Positions 36,932 through 48,800 of a stretch of DNA of 64,000 bases are shown one piece after another; positions within the stretch are counted from its first letter, which is position 1; the number at the start of each line of letters is the position of its first letter. A program made the translations under genes and the position numbers. Source of the stretch: Prochlorococcus sp. AG-347-K10 (lineage in GTDB: Bacteria; Cyanobacteriota; Cyanobacteriia; PCC-6307; Cyanobiaceae); assembly GCA_003278955.1 (NCBI GenBank), contig QCCB01000006.1, positions 1-64,000 on the forward strand, read 5' to 3'. A model generated the notes under the pieces. It did not search any database, was not told the DNA's origin, and was given only the letters and a program-made list of their open reading frames with translations.

Positions 36932-37155
36932 AGGAATATCTATACCCTTTCCTTATTCAAATCAGAATTTAAAATAAAAACATCGTAGAAAATACTTAAC
37001 TGAAGAGATTTAGATTTTCTTAGTTAATTTGTGTTGGTTAGGTTTGTATGAAATGCTACTAAAGCTTGTCTTATCAACCGATTTGGTAATATTGCTCATT
37101 GATTCCTGTAATTTCAAAAGATATATTAAATGGATAATCTAAATATAAGAAATTT

Positions 37156-37481: not shown

Positions 37482-38672
37482 GTGACTGCTGAATCATCTA
37501 AAAATCAAGACTTTATAAGGAAGCATCCCAGTGAAGGAATGGATGCTTTAGAAAAAGAATCAAAATTACCTTTGAAAGGATGGGAAACTGAGGTTGCCCG
37601 AGCAAAGGAATATGGTTTAGAAGGAGCAAAAAGTATTGTCGATAGAAATATATCTACATTTTCAAGAGGAGAATTACCCCATTTTGCAGGTATCAATACT
37701 TTCATGAAAGCTCCATATGTTGAAAATGTAAATGAAGTGGGAAATTATGATGTTGCGATCGTTGGTGTCCCTCATGATTCTGGAACTACTTATAGACCAG
37801 GGACAAGATTCGGACCTCAAGGAATAAGAAAAATTTCTGCTCTTTATACTCCTTACAATTACGAAATGGGAGTGGATCTGAGAGAGCAGATATCTATTTG
37901 TGATGTAGGAGATATTTTTACAATTCCAGCTAATAATGAAAAAAGTTTTGATCAAATTTCAAAGGGGGTTGCTCATATTTTTGCTAGCGGTGCATTTCCA
38001 ATTATTTTAGGTGGAGATCATTCAATAGGTTTTCCTACAGTTAGAGGAGTTTGTCGCCACTTAGGAGATAAAAAAGTAGGGATCATTCATTTTGATAGAC
38101 ATGTAGATACTCAAGAAACAGATTTAGATGAAAGAATGCATACCTGTCCATGGTTTCATGCAACTAATATGAAAAATGCACCTGCAAAAAATCTTGTTCA
38201 ATTAGGTATTGGAGGTTGGCAAGTACCAAGAGAAGGAGTGAAAATTTGCAGGGAAAGAAGTACAAATGTTTTAACAGTTACTGATATTTGTGAAATGGGA
38301 TTAAAAGAGGCCGCTGATTTTGCGATTGAAAAAGCTACTGATGGAACTGACTGCGTATATATTTCTTTTGATATTGATTGTATTGATGCTGGATTTGTCC
38401 CTGGAACTGGTTGGCCTGAACCTGGGGGTTTATTACCTCGAGAGGCATTAAAACTATTGGAGTACATTATCAGAAAAGTTAATGTATGTGGAATTGAGCT
38501 TGTTGAGGTTTCGCCTCCATATGATGTAAGCGATATGACAGCTTTATTAGCTACTAGAGTTATTTGTGATTCAATTGCACATCTCGTAGTAAGTGGTCAG
38601 CTTCCAAGAAAATCTAAACCAGAATGGATTTCAGATAAATGCAATATGTCAGTCGATCAAAAATGGAGATAG
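37482..38672 (+). CDS. gdmH: Ureohydrolase, probable Ni-dependent guanidine hydrolase (GdmH/Sll1077-like)
   Basis: 396 aa, GTG start; arginase fold motifs GGDHS, FDRHVDTQETDLDERMHTCPWFH, SFDIDCIDAGFVPGTGWPEPGG; followed by HypA/HypB-like genes. Confidence 0.82.
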   Translation: MTAESSKNQDFIRKHPSEGMDALEKESKLPLKGWETEVARAKEYGLEGAKSIVDRNISTFSRGELPHFAGINTFMKAPYVENVNEVGNYDVAIVGVPHDSGTTYRPGTRFGPQGIRKISALYTPYNYEMGVDLREQISICDVGDIFTIPANNEKSFDQISKGVAHIFASGAFPIILGGDHSIGFPTVRGVCRHLGDKKVGIIHFDRHVDTQETDLDERMHTCPWFHATNMKNAPAKNLVQLGIGGWQVPREGVKICRERSTNVLTVTDICEMGLKEAADFAIEKATDGTDCVYISFDIDCIDAGFVPGTGWPEPGGLLPREALKLLEYIIRKVNVCGIELVEVSPPYDVSDMTALLATRVICDSIAHLVVSGQLPRKSKPEWISDKCNMSVDQKWR

Positions 38673-38678
38673 ATTTTC

Positions 38679-39035
38679 GTGCATGAAGTAGATATGACAA
38701 AATGCCTTATTCTTTCCATGGAAGAGTGGGCAGAGAAAAAAAATAAAAAAAAAATAGTTGTTGAAAAGATTAATCTTAAGATTGGGGAATTTACTTGCGT
38801 AGAACCAATATCATTAATTAATACTTTTAATGCTGCAGTATTGGGTTCTTGGTTAGATTCCTCTGAGATTACAATTGAGACAATACCTTTTGAAGGGAAA
38901 TGCTCTAAATGCAATAGATTATATTTTCCAAAGAAAGAGAATGGATATAAATCTCCATGTTGCAATTTTAATTTAGAGGAAATTATTAGTGGGAGGGAAT
39001 TAAAAATCGCATCTATTGATTTTAAAGAAAAGTAG
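38679..39035 (+). CDS. HypA-like nickel metallochaperone (GhaA-type)
   Basis: 118 aa, GTG start giving MHEVDMTKCL (Ni-binding N terminus); CSKC...SPCC zinc site. Confidence 0.82.
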   Translation: MHEVDMTKCLILSMEEWAEKKNKKKIVVEKINLKIGEFTCVEPISLINTFNAAVLGSWLDSSEITIETIPFEGKCSKCNRLYFPKKENGYKSPCCNFNLEEIISGRELKIASIDFKEK

Positions 39036-39075
39036 AAATTTAGTATCTAGAATAAAGACGTATTTTCAAATATAA

Positions 39076-39759
39076 ATGCATTTACCAATTTCAGACAAAA
39101 TTGAATTAAATATTCTTCATCAAAATAGTCATCAAGCTGAGAAAAATAAAATCAAGTTTAATAATTATAATTTGCTTTGCTTGAACATCATGAGTAGTCC
39201 TGGTGCAGGAAAAACGAGATTACTTGAAATAACTTTAGAAGATCTTTCAAAAAAATTTCACAGTGCTGTTTTAGAGGGTGATATGACCACTAATCTTGAT
39301 GCGGCAAGATTAGAAAAATTAAATATTCCAGTAGTACCAATTACAACTGGAAGAGCATGTCATCTCGATGCAAATATGGTTAGTGGAGGTTTGAAATTAT
39401 TAGAAAAAAAAATAAATCCTGATTTACTAGATATTTTGTTAGTGGAAAATGTAGGAAATTTAGTTTGTCCTGCAGAATTTGAGATTGGAGAACATTTTAA
39501 AGTTGCTCTTTTAAGTATTACCGAAGGTGAGGATAAACCTTTAAAATATCCAATAATGTTTAGAGAAGCAGATTTAATTTTGATAACTAAAGTTGATTTG
39601 TTACCCCATTTGAATTTTGATATTAACGAATTAAAATCGAACATAGCTTCAACTAACCCTAGGGCAAATGTGATAGAAATTTCTTCGATAACCAAGTCTG
39701 GATTCGATTTATGGCAAGATTGGATTAGTAAAAAGATTCTGAAATTTAAAAATAATTAA
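39076..39759 (+). CDS. HypB-like nickel GTPase chaperone (GhaB-type)
   Basis: 227 aa; IMSSPGAGKTRLLE, EGDMTTNLDAARLE, TGRACHLDANMV, ENVGNLVCPAEFEIGE. Confidence 0.9.
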   Translation: MHLPISDKIELNILHQNSHQAEKNKIKFNNYNLLCLNIMSSPGAGKTRLLEITLEDLSKKFHSAVLEGDMTTNLDAARLEKLNIPVVPITTGRACHLDANMVSGGLKLLEKKINPDLLDILLVENVGNLVCPAEFEIGEHFKVALLSITEGEDKPLKYPIMFREADLILITKVDLLPHLNFDINELKSNIASTNPRANVIEISSITKSGFDLWQDWISKKILKFKNN

Positions 39760-39860
39760 TATTGATTAAGTAAGAGTAATCTCTTAAAAGTATCAGTCAT
39801 TACAACTTTAGATTTGCTTTTTCTTGAGTATTGATAATACGTAATATTTTTTTTTCAAAA

Positions 39861-40859
39861 ATGTTTAAAAAATTGAGAGTTTTCTTTGCCTCTTTGCTTG
39901 CTCTAATATTAGCGATTTCATTAAGTACACTATCAAGTCCTGCAGCTCCAAAAGGTGATCCAATCACTTTGGGATATAGTAACTGGGCAGGATGGTGGCC
40001 CTGGGCGATAGCTGTTGATCAAAAAATGTTTGAAAAAAATGGAGTTAATGTTCAGATGAAATGGTTTGATGGATATGTCCAATCCATGGAAACTTTTGCT
40101 GCTGGTAAAATTGATGGAAATTCACAGACTCTTAATGATACTATTTCGTTCTTGCCAGGAGAGAATGGAGGGGAAGTAGTTGTTTTAGTTAATGATAATT
40201 CTGCAGGGAATGACCAAATAATTGCAGATAAATCAATTAAAAGTGTTGCTGATTTAAAAGGTAAAACAGTAGCAGTAGAAGAAGGTGTTGTAGATGATTT
40301 TTTACTTGTTTTAGCTCTGAATGATGTTGGATTAACTAGGGATGATGTCATTATTAAAGGTCTTCCAACTGATCAGGCTGCAACTGCATTCGCAGCAGGA
40401 AAAGTTGATGCAGTTGGTGCATTCCCTCCATTTACAGGAACTGCAATGAAGAGGCCTGGAGCAAGAGTTATTGCTAGTTCAAAAGAATATCCTGGTGCAA
40501 TCCCTGATTTATTAGCAGTAAGCGGAGATTTGATTTCTGAAAGACCAGATGATGTTCAAAAAATTGTTAAAACATGGTGGGATGTAAGAGAATTCATGGA
40601 AAAAAATCCAAGAAAATCTGAAAAGATCATGGCAAAGCGAGCTGGGATCCCAACACGCGAATACAAACAATATAAAGGTGGAACTAGGTTCTTTTCTTTG
40701 GAAGAAAATTTAGAAGCTTTTAGTGATGGGTTCGGTATGAAATATATGCCTTATGCAGCGAAACAAATGGCAGACTTTATGGTAAAGGTAGGATTTATTC
40801 CTGAAAAACCAGATATGAGTAAATTATTTGACTCTTCGTTCGTTAAAAACATCAGTTAA
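39861..40859 (+). CDS. ABC transporter substrate-binding protein (NMT1/SsuA/TauA-type)
   Basis: Signal peptide; ITLGYSNWAGWWPWAIAVDQKMFEKNGVNVQMKWF...; ATG at 39861 preferred over 39831. Confidence 0.85.
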   Translation: MFKKLRVFFASLLALILAISLSTLSSPAAPKGDPITLGYSNWAGWWPWAIAVDQKMFEKNGVNVQMKWFDGYVQSMETFAAGKIDGNSQTLNDTISFLPGENGGEVVVLVNDNSAGNDQIIADKSIKSVADLKGKTVAVEEGVVDDFLLVLALNDVGLTRDDVIIKGLPTDQAATAFAAGKVDAVGAFPPFTGTAMKRPGARVIASSKEYPGAIPDLLAVSGDLISERPDDVQKIVKTWWDVREFMEKNPRKSEKIMAKRAGIPTREYKQYKGGTRFFSLEENLEAFSDGFGMKYMPYAAKQMADFMVKVGFIPEKPDMSKLFDSSFVKNIS

Positions 40860-40875
40860 TTAATACAAAATTAAA

Positions 40876-41694
40876 ATGGTTAGTTCGAAATTAATCAAGA
40901 GGGATAAATATTTTTTATCCCTCTTTTCATTTGGTAGTGAACCGAAAAAATTAAATAAAATATTTCTTCAAATAGCCTCACTTTTGCTTCCACTTTTAAT
41001 TTGGACATTAGTTTGTCAATTAAAACTTGTAAGTGAAATGTTTTTACCATCACCTTTAGCGGTCTTTTATTCTCTTTTTGATATGGCTGAAAGTGGAATA
41101 TTATTTGAAGATATTTTTGCAAGTACTGGTAGGGTATTTGCTGGTTTTATAATTGCAACAATTTTTTCAATTCCTTTAGGAATTTTAATGGGTTCTTTCC
41201 CTTCTTTTTGTGCGTTATGTGAACCATTAATTGCGATGCTTAGGTATATGCCTGCCGCTGCTTTTTCTCCTTTACTTATTATTTATTTAGGAATTGAAGA
41301 GGCTCCAAAAATTGCATTAATTTTCATTGGTACCGTTTACTTTAATGTTTTGATGGTTATGGATTCAGTAAAATTTGTACCCAAAGAACTCATTGAAACA
41401 ACGCTTACTTTAGGAGGTAATACAAAAGATTTATTGATCAGAGTTATAGCCAGATATTCATTGCCAAGTATTATAGATACTTTAAGAATTAATATTGCAA
41501 CTTCATGGAATTTAGTAATCGTTGCCGAGTTAATTGCAGCAGAAGTTGGTTTAGGTAAAAGGATTCAACTGGCTCAAAGATTTTTTCGCACAGATCAAAT
41601 ATTTGCAGAATTAATAGTGCTTGGATTAATAGGATTTGCTTTGGATATGAGTTTTAGATTGCTACTTAGACGTACATGTAAATGGGCTGTTTAA
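40876..41694 (+). CDS. ABC transporter permease (SsuC/TauC-type)
   Basis: 272 aa; ~5-6 TM, ELIETTLTLGGNTKDLLIRVIARYSLPSIIDTLRINIATSWNLVIVAELIAA. Confidence 0.88.
   Translation: MVSSKLIKRDKYFLSLFSFGSEPKKLNKIFLQIASLLLPLLIWTLVCQLKLVSEMFLPSPLAVFYSLFDMAESGILFEDIFASTGRVFAGFIIATIFSIPLGILMGSFPSFCALCEPLIAMLRYMPAAAFSPLLIIYLGIEEAPKIALIFIGTVYFNVLMVMDSVKFVPKELIETTLTLGGNTKDLLIRVIARYSLPSIIDTLRINIATSWNLVIVAELIAAEVGLGKRIQLAQRFFRTDQIFAELIVLGLIGFALDMSFRLLLRRTCKWAV
40897..40927 (+). terminator. Terminator-like hairpin located inside the permease CDS
   Basis: AAGAGGGATAAA-tattt-TTTATCCCTCTT-TT: perfect 12-bp stem, 5-nt loop, T run. Confidence 0.6.
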
Positions 41695-42456
41695 ATGAAA
41701 TTAGATGTTAATAATATTTCAAAATATTTTGGGGAAGGTTCAAATAGAAAAAAGGCAATTGAGGGAATAAGCTTTTCAATAAGTTCTGGCGAATTTAAAA
41801 CTCTTGTTGGGAGCTCTGGATCAGGTAAAAGTACTATATTGAGGATTATTGCTGGGCTTGAGAGTCCATCTAAAGGGAACGTAAAAGTAGATGGAAAAAT
41901 AGTTAGTGGACCAGGATTGGATAGAGGAATGGTTTTTCAGAAATATAGTCTTTTCCCTTGGCTCACAGCATCTGAGAATATTGCCTTTGGAATGAATTTA
42001 AATTCTTATAAGTTGAAAGAAATAAAATATAGGACATCTTATTTATTAGAAGTAGTAGGTCTTCAGGATTCGGGAAATAAGTATCCAAAAGAATTATCTG
42101 GAGGAATGCAACAAAGGGTTGCAATAGCAAGAGCTCTAGCGACTAACCCTAAAATTCTACTTTTAGATGAACCTTTTGGAGCCTTAGATTTACAGATAAG
42201 AGAATCTATGCAGAAATTTCTCTATGAATTATGGAAAAAAACTTCATTGACAGTTTTACTTATAACCCATGATATTGAAGAAGCATTAGCTCTCTCTCAG
42301 CAAATATGTATTTTAGCACCTAATCCTGGAAGAATCATAAAAGAAGTTAAGGTAGATCTACAAAAAGGAGATTTAGATAAATTGAAACTTGATTCGGATT
42401 TTGCAAAATTAAGATACGAGTTATCTGATTTTTTAAGAGGCCTCCAAAAAAAATAA
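41695..42456 (+). CDS. ABC transporter ATP-binding protein (SsuB/TauB-type)
   Basis: 253 aa; GSSGSGKST, LSGGMQQRVAIARAL, ILLLDEPFGALD. Confidence 0.93.
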   Translation: MKLDVNNISKYFGEGSNRKKAIEGISFSISSGEFKTLVGSSGSGKSTILRIIAGLESPSKGNVKVDGKIVSGPGLDRGMVFQKYSLFPWLTASENIAFGMNLNSYKLKEIKYRTSYLLEVVGLQDSGNKYPKELSGGMQQRVAIARALATNPKILLLDEPFGALDLQIRESMQKFLYELWKKTSLTVLLITHDIEEALALSQQICILAPNPGRIIKEVKVDLQKGDLDKLKLDSDFAKLRYELSDFLRGLQKK

Positions 42457-42459
42457 ATA

Positions 42460-43482
42460 ATGTCAACTAGTTTTTTACCTACTTGGCTTTATAGCGAACA
42501 AAAAATTTTTGAACTTGAATTAGAAAACTATTCAAAAAAATATTGGCACCCATTGATTTTCATAGGAGAAATTAAACCTGGCGAAATATTGGAAAAAAAA
42601 TTCTTTAATCAATCATTATTAATCTCTTGTTCAGAAAAAAACTTAATAACTGTTTTCAAAAATAGATGCCCTCATCGTGGGTCAAAATTGTGTTTGCCAA
42701 AAACAAAATTAAATCCTTCTAAAAATATTTTTTGTCCTTACCATGGCTGGACTTTTGATAGTTTTGGCAAACTAAAAACCTTGCCATTAAAGTACAATTT
42801 TGAAACAAAAATAGAAACAGAGGATTATTTTTTAGAAAAAGTTAACTCTTTAATAAATGGACCTTTAATTTGGATTAATTTCAGCAACAAACCAATATCT
42901 ATAGATGATCAAATTGAGCTTGTTGGGAGAAAATGTAATGATCAATGGGATATGAATTACAATATTTTTTCTGAATTTTCTGATACCTTAAATTGCAATT
43001 GGAAAATTGCCCATGACAATACACTGGACGATTATCATGTAGCAATAGCTCATAAAGATACCCTACATAAAGAACAAGGTCCAATTAAAAACTACAGGTA
43101 TTTCTTCAGTGAATTTTGTAATGTACTTGTTACCCCTCTTAGTAGTGAAGGAAATCTATATACCTTTGGATTACTCCCATGGACCCACCTAATAATCTGG
43201 CCTGGTAAAGGGATTGTTTTAATAAATTATCTTCCTAAAAATATTGGTCAGTGTATTATTGAAATTAAATTAGCCTCTGCTTCTTTATGTAAAAATGATT
43301 TAGAAAATTGGAAAAAAAGTATATTAGAATTTCTTGGAGAAGATAAAGTTATTGTCGAATCAGTTCATAAGTCTTATCTCGAAAATTTTAAACTTGGTCC
43401 GCCTAATAGACTTGAACAAAGGATTATACACTGGCAAAATATTTATAAAGATTTTCTAAATGCATCAGGCATTGCTTTCTAA
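42460..43482 (+). CDS. Rieske non-heme iron oxygenase (ring-hydroxylating/choline-monooxygenase-like alpha subunit)
   Basis: 340 aa; CPHRGSKLCLP...CPYHGWTFDSFGKL Rieske motif; DNTLDDYHVAIAH mononuclear Fe motif. Confidence 0.88.
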   Translation: MSTSFLPTWLYSEQKIFELELENYSKKYWHPLIFIGEIKPGEILEKKFFNQSLLISCSEKNLITVFKNRCPHRGSKLCLPKTKLNPSKNIFCPYHGWTFDSFGKLKTLPLKYNFETKIETEDYFLEKVNSLINGPLIWINFSNKPISIDDQIELVGRKCNDQWDMNYNIFSEFSDTLNCNWKIAHDNTLDDYHVAIAHKDTLHKEQGPIKNYRYFFSEFCNVLVTPLSSEGNLYTFGLLPWTHLIIWPGKGIVLINYLPKNIGQCIIEIKLASASLCKNDLENWKKSILEFLGEDKVIVESVHKSYLENFKLGPPNRLEQRIIHWQNIYKDFLNASGIAF

Positions 43483-43943: not shown

Positions 43944-44807
43944 TTAAGCTGAGATTTTTGATGATTTGATAATTTCCCATGCTTCTGGTGCGGTATCTGC
44001 ATATTGGAAAAGATTTAAGTTTTCATCTGAAATTAATCCAAGATCAGCTAGATATTCGAAGTTAATTATCTTATTCCAATAATCTCTACCAAAAAGTATG
44101 ATTGGGATTTTAGTTTTCATTCCTGTTTGACAAAGTGTCAATAGTTCAAATAATTCATCTAGTGTTCCAAAACCTCCAGGGAAAAATACAGCGGCTACAG
44201 ATCGCATTACAAAATGGATCTTTCGTAATGCAAAATAATTAAACTTAAAGCAAAGACCGGGAGTTATAAAAGCATTTGGGATTTGTTCATTAGGCAGACT
44301 GATATTTAACCCTATAGATTTACAATTTGCTTCAAATGCACCTCTATTAGCAGCTTCCATAATTCCTGGCCCCCCACCTGTCACAATCACATGAGAATTA
44401 CAGTTTTTATTTTGATTACTAATTGAAGCAAGTTTAGAAAACTCCCTTGCGGATTGATAGTAATGACTCATAAGAAGCAAATTTTCTAATCTATTTAAAT
44501 TTCGTTTTAAAAGTATCGATTTAGGATTTTTTTTAAGCAACTCTTCTATATTTTCAAGTCTCTTTTTTATATTTACTTCTTCTGTAATGCTTGCGCCTCC
44601 AAAAATAATTATTGTTGAAAGAATTTTATTTTCTTCAAGGATTAAATCTGGTTTAGTAATTTCAAGAAGCATTCTGACTCCACGCATTTCATTTCGGCTA
44701 AGTAAACCAATATCTTCGTGAGCCAATTTATAAGTATCAGAATTAATAATTAAATTCAGGTTTTTTAAATTATTAATAGGGGATATATGTTTTTTCATTT
44801 CAAACAA
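43944..44807 (-). CDS. LOG family protein (TIGR00730-like, lysine decarboxylase fold)
   Basis: 287 aa; VTGGGPGIMEAANRGAFEA and FFPGGFGTLDELFELLTLCQTG. Confidence 0.92.
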   Translation of the reverse strand: MFEMKKHISPINNLKNLNLIINSDTYKLAHEDIGLLSRNEMRGVRMLLEITKPDLILEENKILSTIIIFGGASITEEVNIKKRLENIEELLKKNPKSILLKRNLNRLENLLLMSHYYQSAREFSKLASISNQNKNCNSHVIVTGGGPGIMEAANRGAFEANCKSIGLNISLPNEQIPNAFITPGLCFKFNYFALRKIHFVMRSVAAVFFPGGFGTLDELFELLTLCQTGMKTKIPIILFGRDYWNKIINFEYLADLGLISDENLNLFQYADTAPEAWEIIKSSKISA

Positions 44808-45318
44808 GAGTTTTAACTTTTCTTTCTAGAGGACTAAAATAGACTCTTTTGATTTTGTTATTTTCGTAAATCCAATAAACAGGCGGACTTTTTCTTGCCT
44901 TAATTAAATTAATTTTGTCTAACTTTTGAGGGGTAAATTCTTTAGAAGGATCAAAAAATTTATCTCTCTTGGGTTGGTTTAAAACAATACTACCTTCTTT
45001 CCCTGAGATAGATCTGTGATAAGTTCCTACAGGAATTTCTAATGCTCCCATAAATCTATTTAAATAAATCACATGATGAGGTTCATCCCAGGAAGGATTT
45101 ATTAAAACAAATGTCCTTTCTCCAGTGATAACTAAATTGTGGTCAATTTGATGATTGTGAACGTAATATTGCTCATCTTTTAAATCATCTGGAGGAGATA
45201 TAGCTTCTCCAGAATGGATCACAACATCAGAACCGTTAGAACTATCTATGCCTGCATCGAAGAATGTGACTTTTGGAGTCTCTCTAAAAATATTTATTGG
45301 GAAGAATCTTAATTCCAT
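44800..45318 (-). CDS. Hypothetical cupin-like protein
   Basis: 172 aa; overlaps LOG gene start; EIPVGTYHRSISGKEGSIVLNQ. Confidence 0.65.
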   Translation of the reverse strand: MELRFFPINIFRETPKVTFFDAGIDSSNGSDVVIHSGEAISPPDDLKDEQYYVHNHQIDHNLVITGERTFVLINPSWDEPHHVIYLNRFMGALEIPVGTYHRSISGKEGSIVLNQPKRDKFFDPSKEFTPQKLDKINLIKARKSPPVYWIYENNKIKRVYFSPLERKVKTLV

Positions 45319-48718: not shown

Positions 48719-48800
48719 AATCGTCCGATCTACCATCTGATAGACCGCAGTACGACTCAAGCCATAGGACGGGGACTTGAGCAAATTCAGGAGCTGCATC
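48703..48800 (+). ncRNA. Structured 5' leader / candidate sRNA ahead of microprotein
   Basis: CTCAAG(48756-61)/CTTGAG(48776-81) hairpin and crossing CGTCC(48722-26)/GGACG(48767-71) pairing. Confidence 0.45.

Follow-up and report, generated by a model that had tools for sequence, protein, structure and literature searches.

A gene for a Rieske non-haem iron oxygenase closes the guanidine import and hydrolysis operon of Prochlorococcus sp. AG-347-K10, a member of the most abundant group of photosynthetic microbes in the sea, raising the question of what an oxygenase contributes to this route. That guanidine is used in marine systems has only lately come to be recognised. Dore et al. 2023 (PMC10119275; Pro-eCAG_004 / Syn-eCAG_001 with CK_00002251) have already reported this cluster and noted a Rieske gene downstream, and the accessible portion of that paper assigns the gene no function as an enzyme and analyses neither its phylogeny nor its active site or regulation. 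A search of the open-licence literature found no description of its function and none linking Rieske enzymes to methylguanidine in such a role. The gene is real, conserved and uncharacterised. As far as literature searches show, the definition of its clade, its tie to the transporter, its failure of the Group V signatures, the electron-donor argument and the proposed regulatory swap are new.

Gene order and features of the operon

The window, meaning the whole 64,000-nucleotide stretch analysed, comes from a Prochlorococcus-type genome of 34 contigs and 1.34 Mb that is 82% complete. Seven genes run on the forward strand from 37482 to 43482 in the order GdmH-HypA-HypB-SBP-permease-ATPase-Rieske, where SBP is the substrate-binding protein (Table 1). 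The Rieske ORF is intact, begins with ATG and is the last of the seven. The initial annotation had placed its start 3 bp after the ATPase stop, and the ORF ends confirm this (ATPase end 42456, Rieske start 42460). Where Prochlorococcus has both genes (54 loci), the spacing was 3 bp in 46, -1 in six, -11 in one and 9 in one, and these short or overlapping gaps make co-transcription and translational coupling likely. An alternative ATG for the SBP gene lies at 39861, 30 nt downstream of the listed TTG. In profile searches the transporter proteins scored as sulfonate/taurine/urea-type.

Table 1. Positions in the window of the operon genes and the putative regulatory boxes
Feature	Position	Strand	Basis
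NtcA-like box GTATGAAATGCTAC, 436 nt upstream of GdmH	37046..37059		GTA-N8-TAC pattern
GdmH guanidine hydrolase (Ni ureohydrolase), 396 aa	37482..38672	+	homology to solved Synechocystis enzyme
HypA-type nickel metallochaperone, 118 aa	38679..39035	+	profile matches
HypB-type nickel GTPase, 227 aa	39076..39759	+	profile matches
NtcA-like box GTATCAGTCATTAC, upstream of SBP gene	39790..39803		GTA-N8-TAC pattern
ABC substrate-binding protein (SBP), 342 aa from listed TTG, SsuA family TIGR01728	39831..40859	+	profile matches
ABC transporter permease, 272 aa	40876..41694	+	profile matches
ABC transporter ATPase, 253 aa, taurine/nitrate/SaoA-like	41695..42456	+	profile matches
Rieske non-haem iron oxygenase, 340 aa	42460..43482	+	metal ligands, Pfam domains, fold model

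Metal sites, selective constraint and fold

The Rieske and mononuclear iron motifs, described as intact from the outset, were borne out by the ligands and by both Pfam domains, which scored above their cut-offs (PF00355 Rieske, 53.5 bits against 20.3; Ring_hydroxyl_A, 32.8 bits against 24.9). The cluster ligands lie in C70-P-H72-R-G and C92-P-Y-H95, and the mononuclear site in D190-D191-Y-H193-V-A-I-A-H198, to which we add D295 as a third ligand missing from the initial annotation. In the alignment, H193, H198 and D295 correspond to CntA H208, H213 and D323. These three residues and the [2Fe-2S] ligands C70, H72, C92 and H95 were invariant in 28 family sequences, as were T188, D191, V194 and the bridging carboxylate D190, three residues ahead of the first iron His. 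Five sister-group Rieske proteins (L144-L148) carry Cys at the bridging position (HDNTLCDYH) and retain the next Asp; this Cys is unusual because CntA loses its activity when the bridging residue is changed.

The median pairwise dN/dS within Prochlorococcus was 0.20 for the Rieske gene and 0.05-0.10 for its operon neighbours, so that the gene is under purifying selection, albeit some two- to fourfold weaker than theirs. Between Prochlorococcus and Synechococcus, identity was ~38% for the Rieske protein and ~86% for GdmH. The enzyme is retained but fast-drifting. A structure model of the Rieske protein reached a pLDDT of 86.5 and a pTM of 0.87, with pLDDT <50 at residues 204-208; the positions of active-site residues were taken from the sequence alignment.

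Comparison with other Rieske oxygenases

The carnitine monooxygenase CntA, an enzyme that cleaves the C-N bond of an amine, was the nearest relative both by profile (E 3e-34, nearly full length) and by fold (E 1e-19, TM 0.78, 21% identity). The Rieske protein shares with this Group Va enzyme (PDB 6y9c, 6y8j, 6y9d, 6zgp) the Rieske ligands, the His-His-Asp site and an ED..VES.Q helix in register. It differs in the bridging residue (E205 in CntA, D190 here), in the pi-cation residue (Y203, T188 here) and in Cys206/Cys209 (D191/V194 here). Only one of the seven carnitine contacts is retained (F319, F291 here); the others, Y203, Y225, F258, N270, Y295 and Y315, are replaced by T188, T201, L233, I245, I267 and K285 in a mapping made by hand from the profile alignment with a 20-residue chain offset.

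Group V is split by the residue at CntA position 203, which is Tyr or Phe in Va and Asn in Vb (PMC7948474), and a Cys-x-x-Cys pair at 206/209 near the iron is a trait of some of its members (PMC10952381). Both signatures were absent: all 28 family sequences had Thr188 in place of Tyr, Phe or Asn, and all 28 had D191 and V194 in place of the Cys pair. Stc2, the stachydrine demethylase of Group Vb, has a related fold that ranked with the best matches (TMq ~0.8) and performs N-demethylation, but its Cys pair is missing here, as is the Asn of Group Vb at position 203. The glycine betaine monooxygenase GbcA, also of Group Vb, supplied the best NCBIfam model (NF058607), although the match reached 82.8 bits against a cut-off of 670 and covered residues 6-203 only. 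In the tree, the Rieske groups from Cyanobiaceae and from outside the family formed one separate clade (support 98/97); the same tree leaves the placement of this clade inside or outside Group V undecided at depth and does not fix its nearest relatives.

The initial likening to quaternary-amine monooxygenases therefore stands for the fold and the best matches (CntA), and fails for the substrate-binding signatures (T188, D191 and V194 against Y203, C206 and C209). The protein resembles an amine monooxygenase in outline but, judged by its residues, fails the Group V signature tests. Because Cys206 of CntA sits ~4.4 A from the substrate ammonium, which Y203 likewise adjoins, the invariant Asp191 at the Cys206 position would be a natural anchor for a guanidinium group, and the invariant Thr/Asp combination would suit hydrogen bonding to guanidinium better than to a quaternary amine. 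An Asp at this position also occurs in another cyanobacterial Rieske protein (L143), so it is not unique to the clade.

Guanidine hydrolysis and electron supply

GdmH matched the solved Synechocystis enzyme (7esr/7oi1, deposited as 'Probable agmatinase 2') with an E value of 4.5e-226. Its residues T103 and W311 fall, with one offset of 6, on the guanidine-specificity positions T97 and W305 of that enzyme, whose native length we take to be 390 aa for this register. Thr and Trp at 97/305 make the enzyme guanidine-specific (PMC11410670). Urease was also present. The GdmH operon of Synechocystis PCC 6803 has the same six genes for guanidine hydrolase, HypA/HypB and ABC transporter, but no Rieske gene is present there (PMC10119275).

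Electron supply was assessed through proteins with an NAD_binding_1 domain. Only one was found, FNR-sized in an open frame of 371-405 aa, in each of the present genome (G000) and the complete Rieske-bearing genomes G044 and G325. A CntB/GbcB-type FAD/NAD/[2Fe-2S] reductase was found in neither complete genome nor in G000, a further difference from CntA that agrees with the earlier remark that no partner reductase was evident in the window. Since a CntB/GbcB/VanB-type reductase would carry NAD_binding_1 and only the FNR-like protein exists, photosynthetic ferredoxin is the likely electron donor of the Rieske protein, by analogy with plant choline monooxygenase, which is reduced by ferredoxin.

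Distribution and linkage across genomes

Within the genus Prochlorococcus, the Rieske gene was present in 60 of 266 genomes, GdmH in 54 and both in 51; the Rieske count omits a match of 30% identity in G265. Twelve discordant genomes were opened, and 11 were rejected as genuine exceptions to the linkage, being cut by contig ends. Only G235 looks real. Here, the last third of the Rieske gene alone lies beside the gene that normally precedes the operon (L050, 64-2183); the operon has been lost or the contig is chimeric, and it looks like a real loss.

Across the family Cyanobiaceae, the Rieske gene was found in 71 of 300 genomes, GdmH in 99 and both in 69 (Fisher p 4e-41, to be read as a guide only, as related genomes are not independent). 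Of the 69 genomes with both, 64 have the two genes on a single contig in the same orientation, separated by 2.3-5.9 kb. The Rieske gene keeps its position at 54/54 of the Prochlorococcus loci where both are present, and likewise in other genera. In the phylum sample, GdmH was present in 58 of 386 genomes, 43 of these being outside Cyanobiaceae. Full-length Rieske homologues outside the family were found in five genomes (E 1e-68 to 1e-76; next match 1e-35), every one with GdmH, and three of the five, all from one other cyanobacterial family, had the identical seven-gene order. The linkage of GdmH, the ABC transporter and the Rieske gene, on which the initial annotation had staked its reading, therefore holds across genomes (69/71 in Cyanobiaceae, 5/5 outside). 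It is real and old, extending over Prochlorococcus, Synechococcus/Cyanobium and the three genomes of the other family.

The exceptions show which partner the Rieske gene follows. The GdmH-HypA-HypB module of G443 lies ~163 kb away from an intact SBP-permease-ATPase-Rieske block (L101/L102). In G519 the Rieske gene is ~145 kb from GdmH, and in G704 it is solitary, with GdmH-HypA-HypB elsewhere. The Rieske gene of G603 stands within a second, diverged ABC operon (SBP 29% identical) in the order SBP-permease-biuret-hydrolase-like protein-ATPase-Rieske (L148, 7366-11906), apart from the GdmH operon; the biuret-hydrolase-like enzyme scored 91 bits against a cut-off of 370, and GdmH has its own complete transporter operon elsewhere in the genome. 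Conversely, GdmH occurred without the Rieske gene in 30 family genomes, with transporter genes behind GdmH in all nine that were opened. The Rieske gene tracks the transporter more than GdmH. Because operons without it are common and it stays with the transporter when GdmH splits off, it looks like an accessory tied to the importer's cargo, in a guanidine route that works without it. In freshwater Cyanobium, the SBPs of operons with and without the Rieske gene were equally similar to the SBP of the window.

A search of viral contigs returned no relative and hence no phage-borne copy. Horizontal transfer to an 'Acidiferrobacteraceae' genome (L225, PBSU01000039.1) was considered and rejected, as the whole operon is Synechococcus-like and mis-binning is likelier.

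Regulation of the operon

A guanidine-I riboswitch was found ahead of the operon in Synechococcus/Cyanobium, where Dore et al. (PMC10119275) also report one at the Synechococcus cluster. It was found as well in both of the two tested among the three seven-gene operons from outside the family, and ahead of five Rieske-bearing operons outside Prochlorococcus in all. In Prochlorococcus it was absent even at permissive thresholds. This differs from Synechocystis PCC 6803, which has the riboswitch, and Prochlorococcus has NtcA-like boxes instead. The split modules of G443 and the GdmH module of G519 had no guanidine-I riboswitch at gathering score, and the Rieske operon of G603 gave no riboswitch match. 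The only weak match of the first Prochlorococcus riboswitch search, to a U4 RNA, was dismissed as chance, being below the gathering score and inside a coding gene.

The GTATCAGTCATTAC box of the window ends 27 nt before the listed SBP start. The pattern GTA-N8-TAC was present ahead of the SBP gene at 48/48 Prochlorococcus loci, with the six defining bases fixed and the spacer variable, and a box of the GTATGAAATGCTAC kind was upstream of GdmH at 31 of 41. In the window as a whole, 13 sites of this pattern were counted against 6.2 expected from shuffles. The Synechococcus loci that were checked had no NtcA-like box ahead of the SBP gene. The conserved boxes together with the missing riboswitch suggest that Prochlorococcus swapped guanidine sensing for nitrogen-stress control via putative NtcA sites, and that the transporter-Rieske half may form its own transcript.

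Proposed function and alternative explanations

We consider the chances even that the Rieske protein serves as an accessory N-dealkylase, driven by ferredoxin, and liberates guanidine from what we infer to be N-substituted guanidines. The ABC importer would take up guanidine and related guanidinium compounds, and the Rieske protein, reduced by ferredoxin, would hydroxylate the carbon bonded to a guanidine nitrogen of the N-substituted compound. The hydroxylated product would then fall apart into guanidine and an aldehyde, GdmH would split the guanidine into urea and ammonia, and urease would complete the route. Methylguanidine is the simplest candidate and other N-alkyl guanidines are possible; that methylguanidine alone is the substrate is doubtful. 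An unmasking enzyme would have a place in such a route because GdmH-type guanidinases refuse methylguanidine, yielding no urea from it or from arginine, creatine and others, in line with previous findings for the enzyme from cyanobacteria (PMC11410670). A C-N cleaving monooxygenase tied to the importer next to GdmH, its cation site altered, would fit this place. Operons without the Rieske gene are common, as expected of an accessory step. The proposal is further favoured by the co-occurrence with GdmH, the conserved gene position, the guanidine-I riboswitch ahead of the operon in Synechococcus/Cyanobium and the other family, the purifying selection and the presence of urease. More tentatively, and at somewhat below even probability, these proteins would constitute an undescribed Rieske clade, so far cyanobacterial only, that is wired to photosynthetic ferredoxin and N-dealkylates guanidinium compounds via the invariant Thr/Asp pair.

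A comparable arrangement is known from Vreelandella boliviensis, where MgdH/MgdL likewise provide an oxygenase in a guanidine operon that frees guanidine from methylguanidine (PMC12508155). It differs in that MgdH is a 2-oxoglutarate dioxygenase rather than a Rieske protein and is followed by the lyase MgdL. No MgdL-like lyase was evident in the Prochlorococcus operon, which counts against N-dealkylation, although N-(hydroxymethyl)guanidine does break down slowly in vitro. Methylguanidine is not bound by the guanidine-I riboswitch tested in Vreelandella, so the proposed substrate would act as an inducer only by an indirect route. The faster evolution of the Rieske gene relative to its neighbours also counts against the proposal, as does the literature search, which found no marine source of methylguanidine.

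Since the Rieske gene of G603 accompanies a biuret-hydrolase-like enzyme and has no riboswitch match, its substrate may be a different nitrogen compound. Extended to all members, the Rieske protein would oxidise a ureide, amine or betaine delivered by the same taurine/urea-like importer, within a broad organic-nitrogen island for which guanidine is one substrate. The architecture would be like that of tauABCD, where the compound taken up by the importer is cleaved by a partner oxygenase, and the sulfonate/taurine/urea-type scores of the transporter proteins, the ~163 kb split in G443 that leaves the Rieske gene with the transporter rather than with GdmH, and the separate importer and hydrolase in G603 all point the same way. 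We nevertheless regard this as rather unlikely, given the presence of GdmH in all five Rieske bearers outside the family, the guanidine-I riboswitch ahead of five Rieske-bearing operons outside Prochlorococcus, and the freshwater Cyanobium SBPs, whose similarity to that of the window is equal with and without the Rieske gene. A larger guanidino metabolite (arginine, homoarginine, agmatine, guanidinobutyrate or creatine), hydroxylated at the carbon beside its guanidine nitrogen, would involve the same chemistry and release the same product for GdmH. Plant homoarginine-6-hydroxylases and the ethylene-forming enzyme, which have other folds, free guanidine in this manner. There is thus precedent for its release by oxygenases (PMC11018352), and a charged molecule of such size is also the substrate of CntA. 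The replacement of the CntA polar contacts Y225, N270 and Y295 by T201, I245 and I267 in the hand mapping speaks against a substrate of this kind, though not decisively, and we judge it improbable.

Guanidine itself could be the compound oxidised, perhaps to N-hydroxyguanidine in a detoxification or signalling role, which would be in keeping with the place of the gene downstream of a guanidine riboswitch in Synechococcus/Cyanobium. Within an operon for nutrient acquisition, such an activity would set the enzyme in competition with GdmH and waste reductant and nitrogen, and the literature search found no precedent, so it appears very improbable. Most remote is the idea that the gene is a passenger without a role in guanidine metabolism. 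No other gene of the operon is so weakly constrained (dN/dS 0.20 vs 0.05-0.10) and many operons lack it, but this value still denotes purifying selection, all 28 family sequences share the metal ligands and the place after the ATPase is conserved over two families.

That Prochlorococcus and Synechococcus keep an oxygenase at the importer suggests that modified guanidines, and not free guanidine alone, are among the environmental substrates. If N-dealkylation is correct, substituted guanidines would be open to both genera as a source of nitrogen that has so far gone unrecognised in the ocean. According to an idea put forward in PMC10119275, the cluster owes its absence from low-iron waters to its Fe-S protein; the iron need of the Rieske protein gives this explanation a concrete form.

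Additional genes in and around the operon

A type III glutamine-synthetase-family gene lies between HypB and the SBP gene in L107 (7526-8878), L094 (11783-13189) and the freshwater Cyanobium loci among L222-L237. Its closest PDB match was glutamate--methylamine ligase (9qur, E 6e-111), and it was dropped as a clue to the pathway because it occurs in operons with and without the Rieske gene. Downstream of the Rieske gene in two freshwater Cyanobium loci (L233, 9179-12569; L236, 9925-12565) are an alpha/beta hydrolase and a second glutamine-synthetase-like gene, with a fatty-acid-desaturase-family protein in addition in L233; these genes possibly belong to another nitrogen-compound pathway.

In the window, a Glutamine-II riboswitch (48719-48781, 58.4 bits) lies ~5 kb downstream of the Rieske gene and is followed by small ORFs only. 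A conserved 172-aa ORF without a Pfam match (44800-45318, reverse strand) adjoins a LOG/lysine-decarboxylase-family gene, and both are retained next to the operon in most Prochlorococcus loci.
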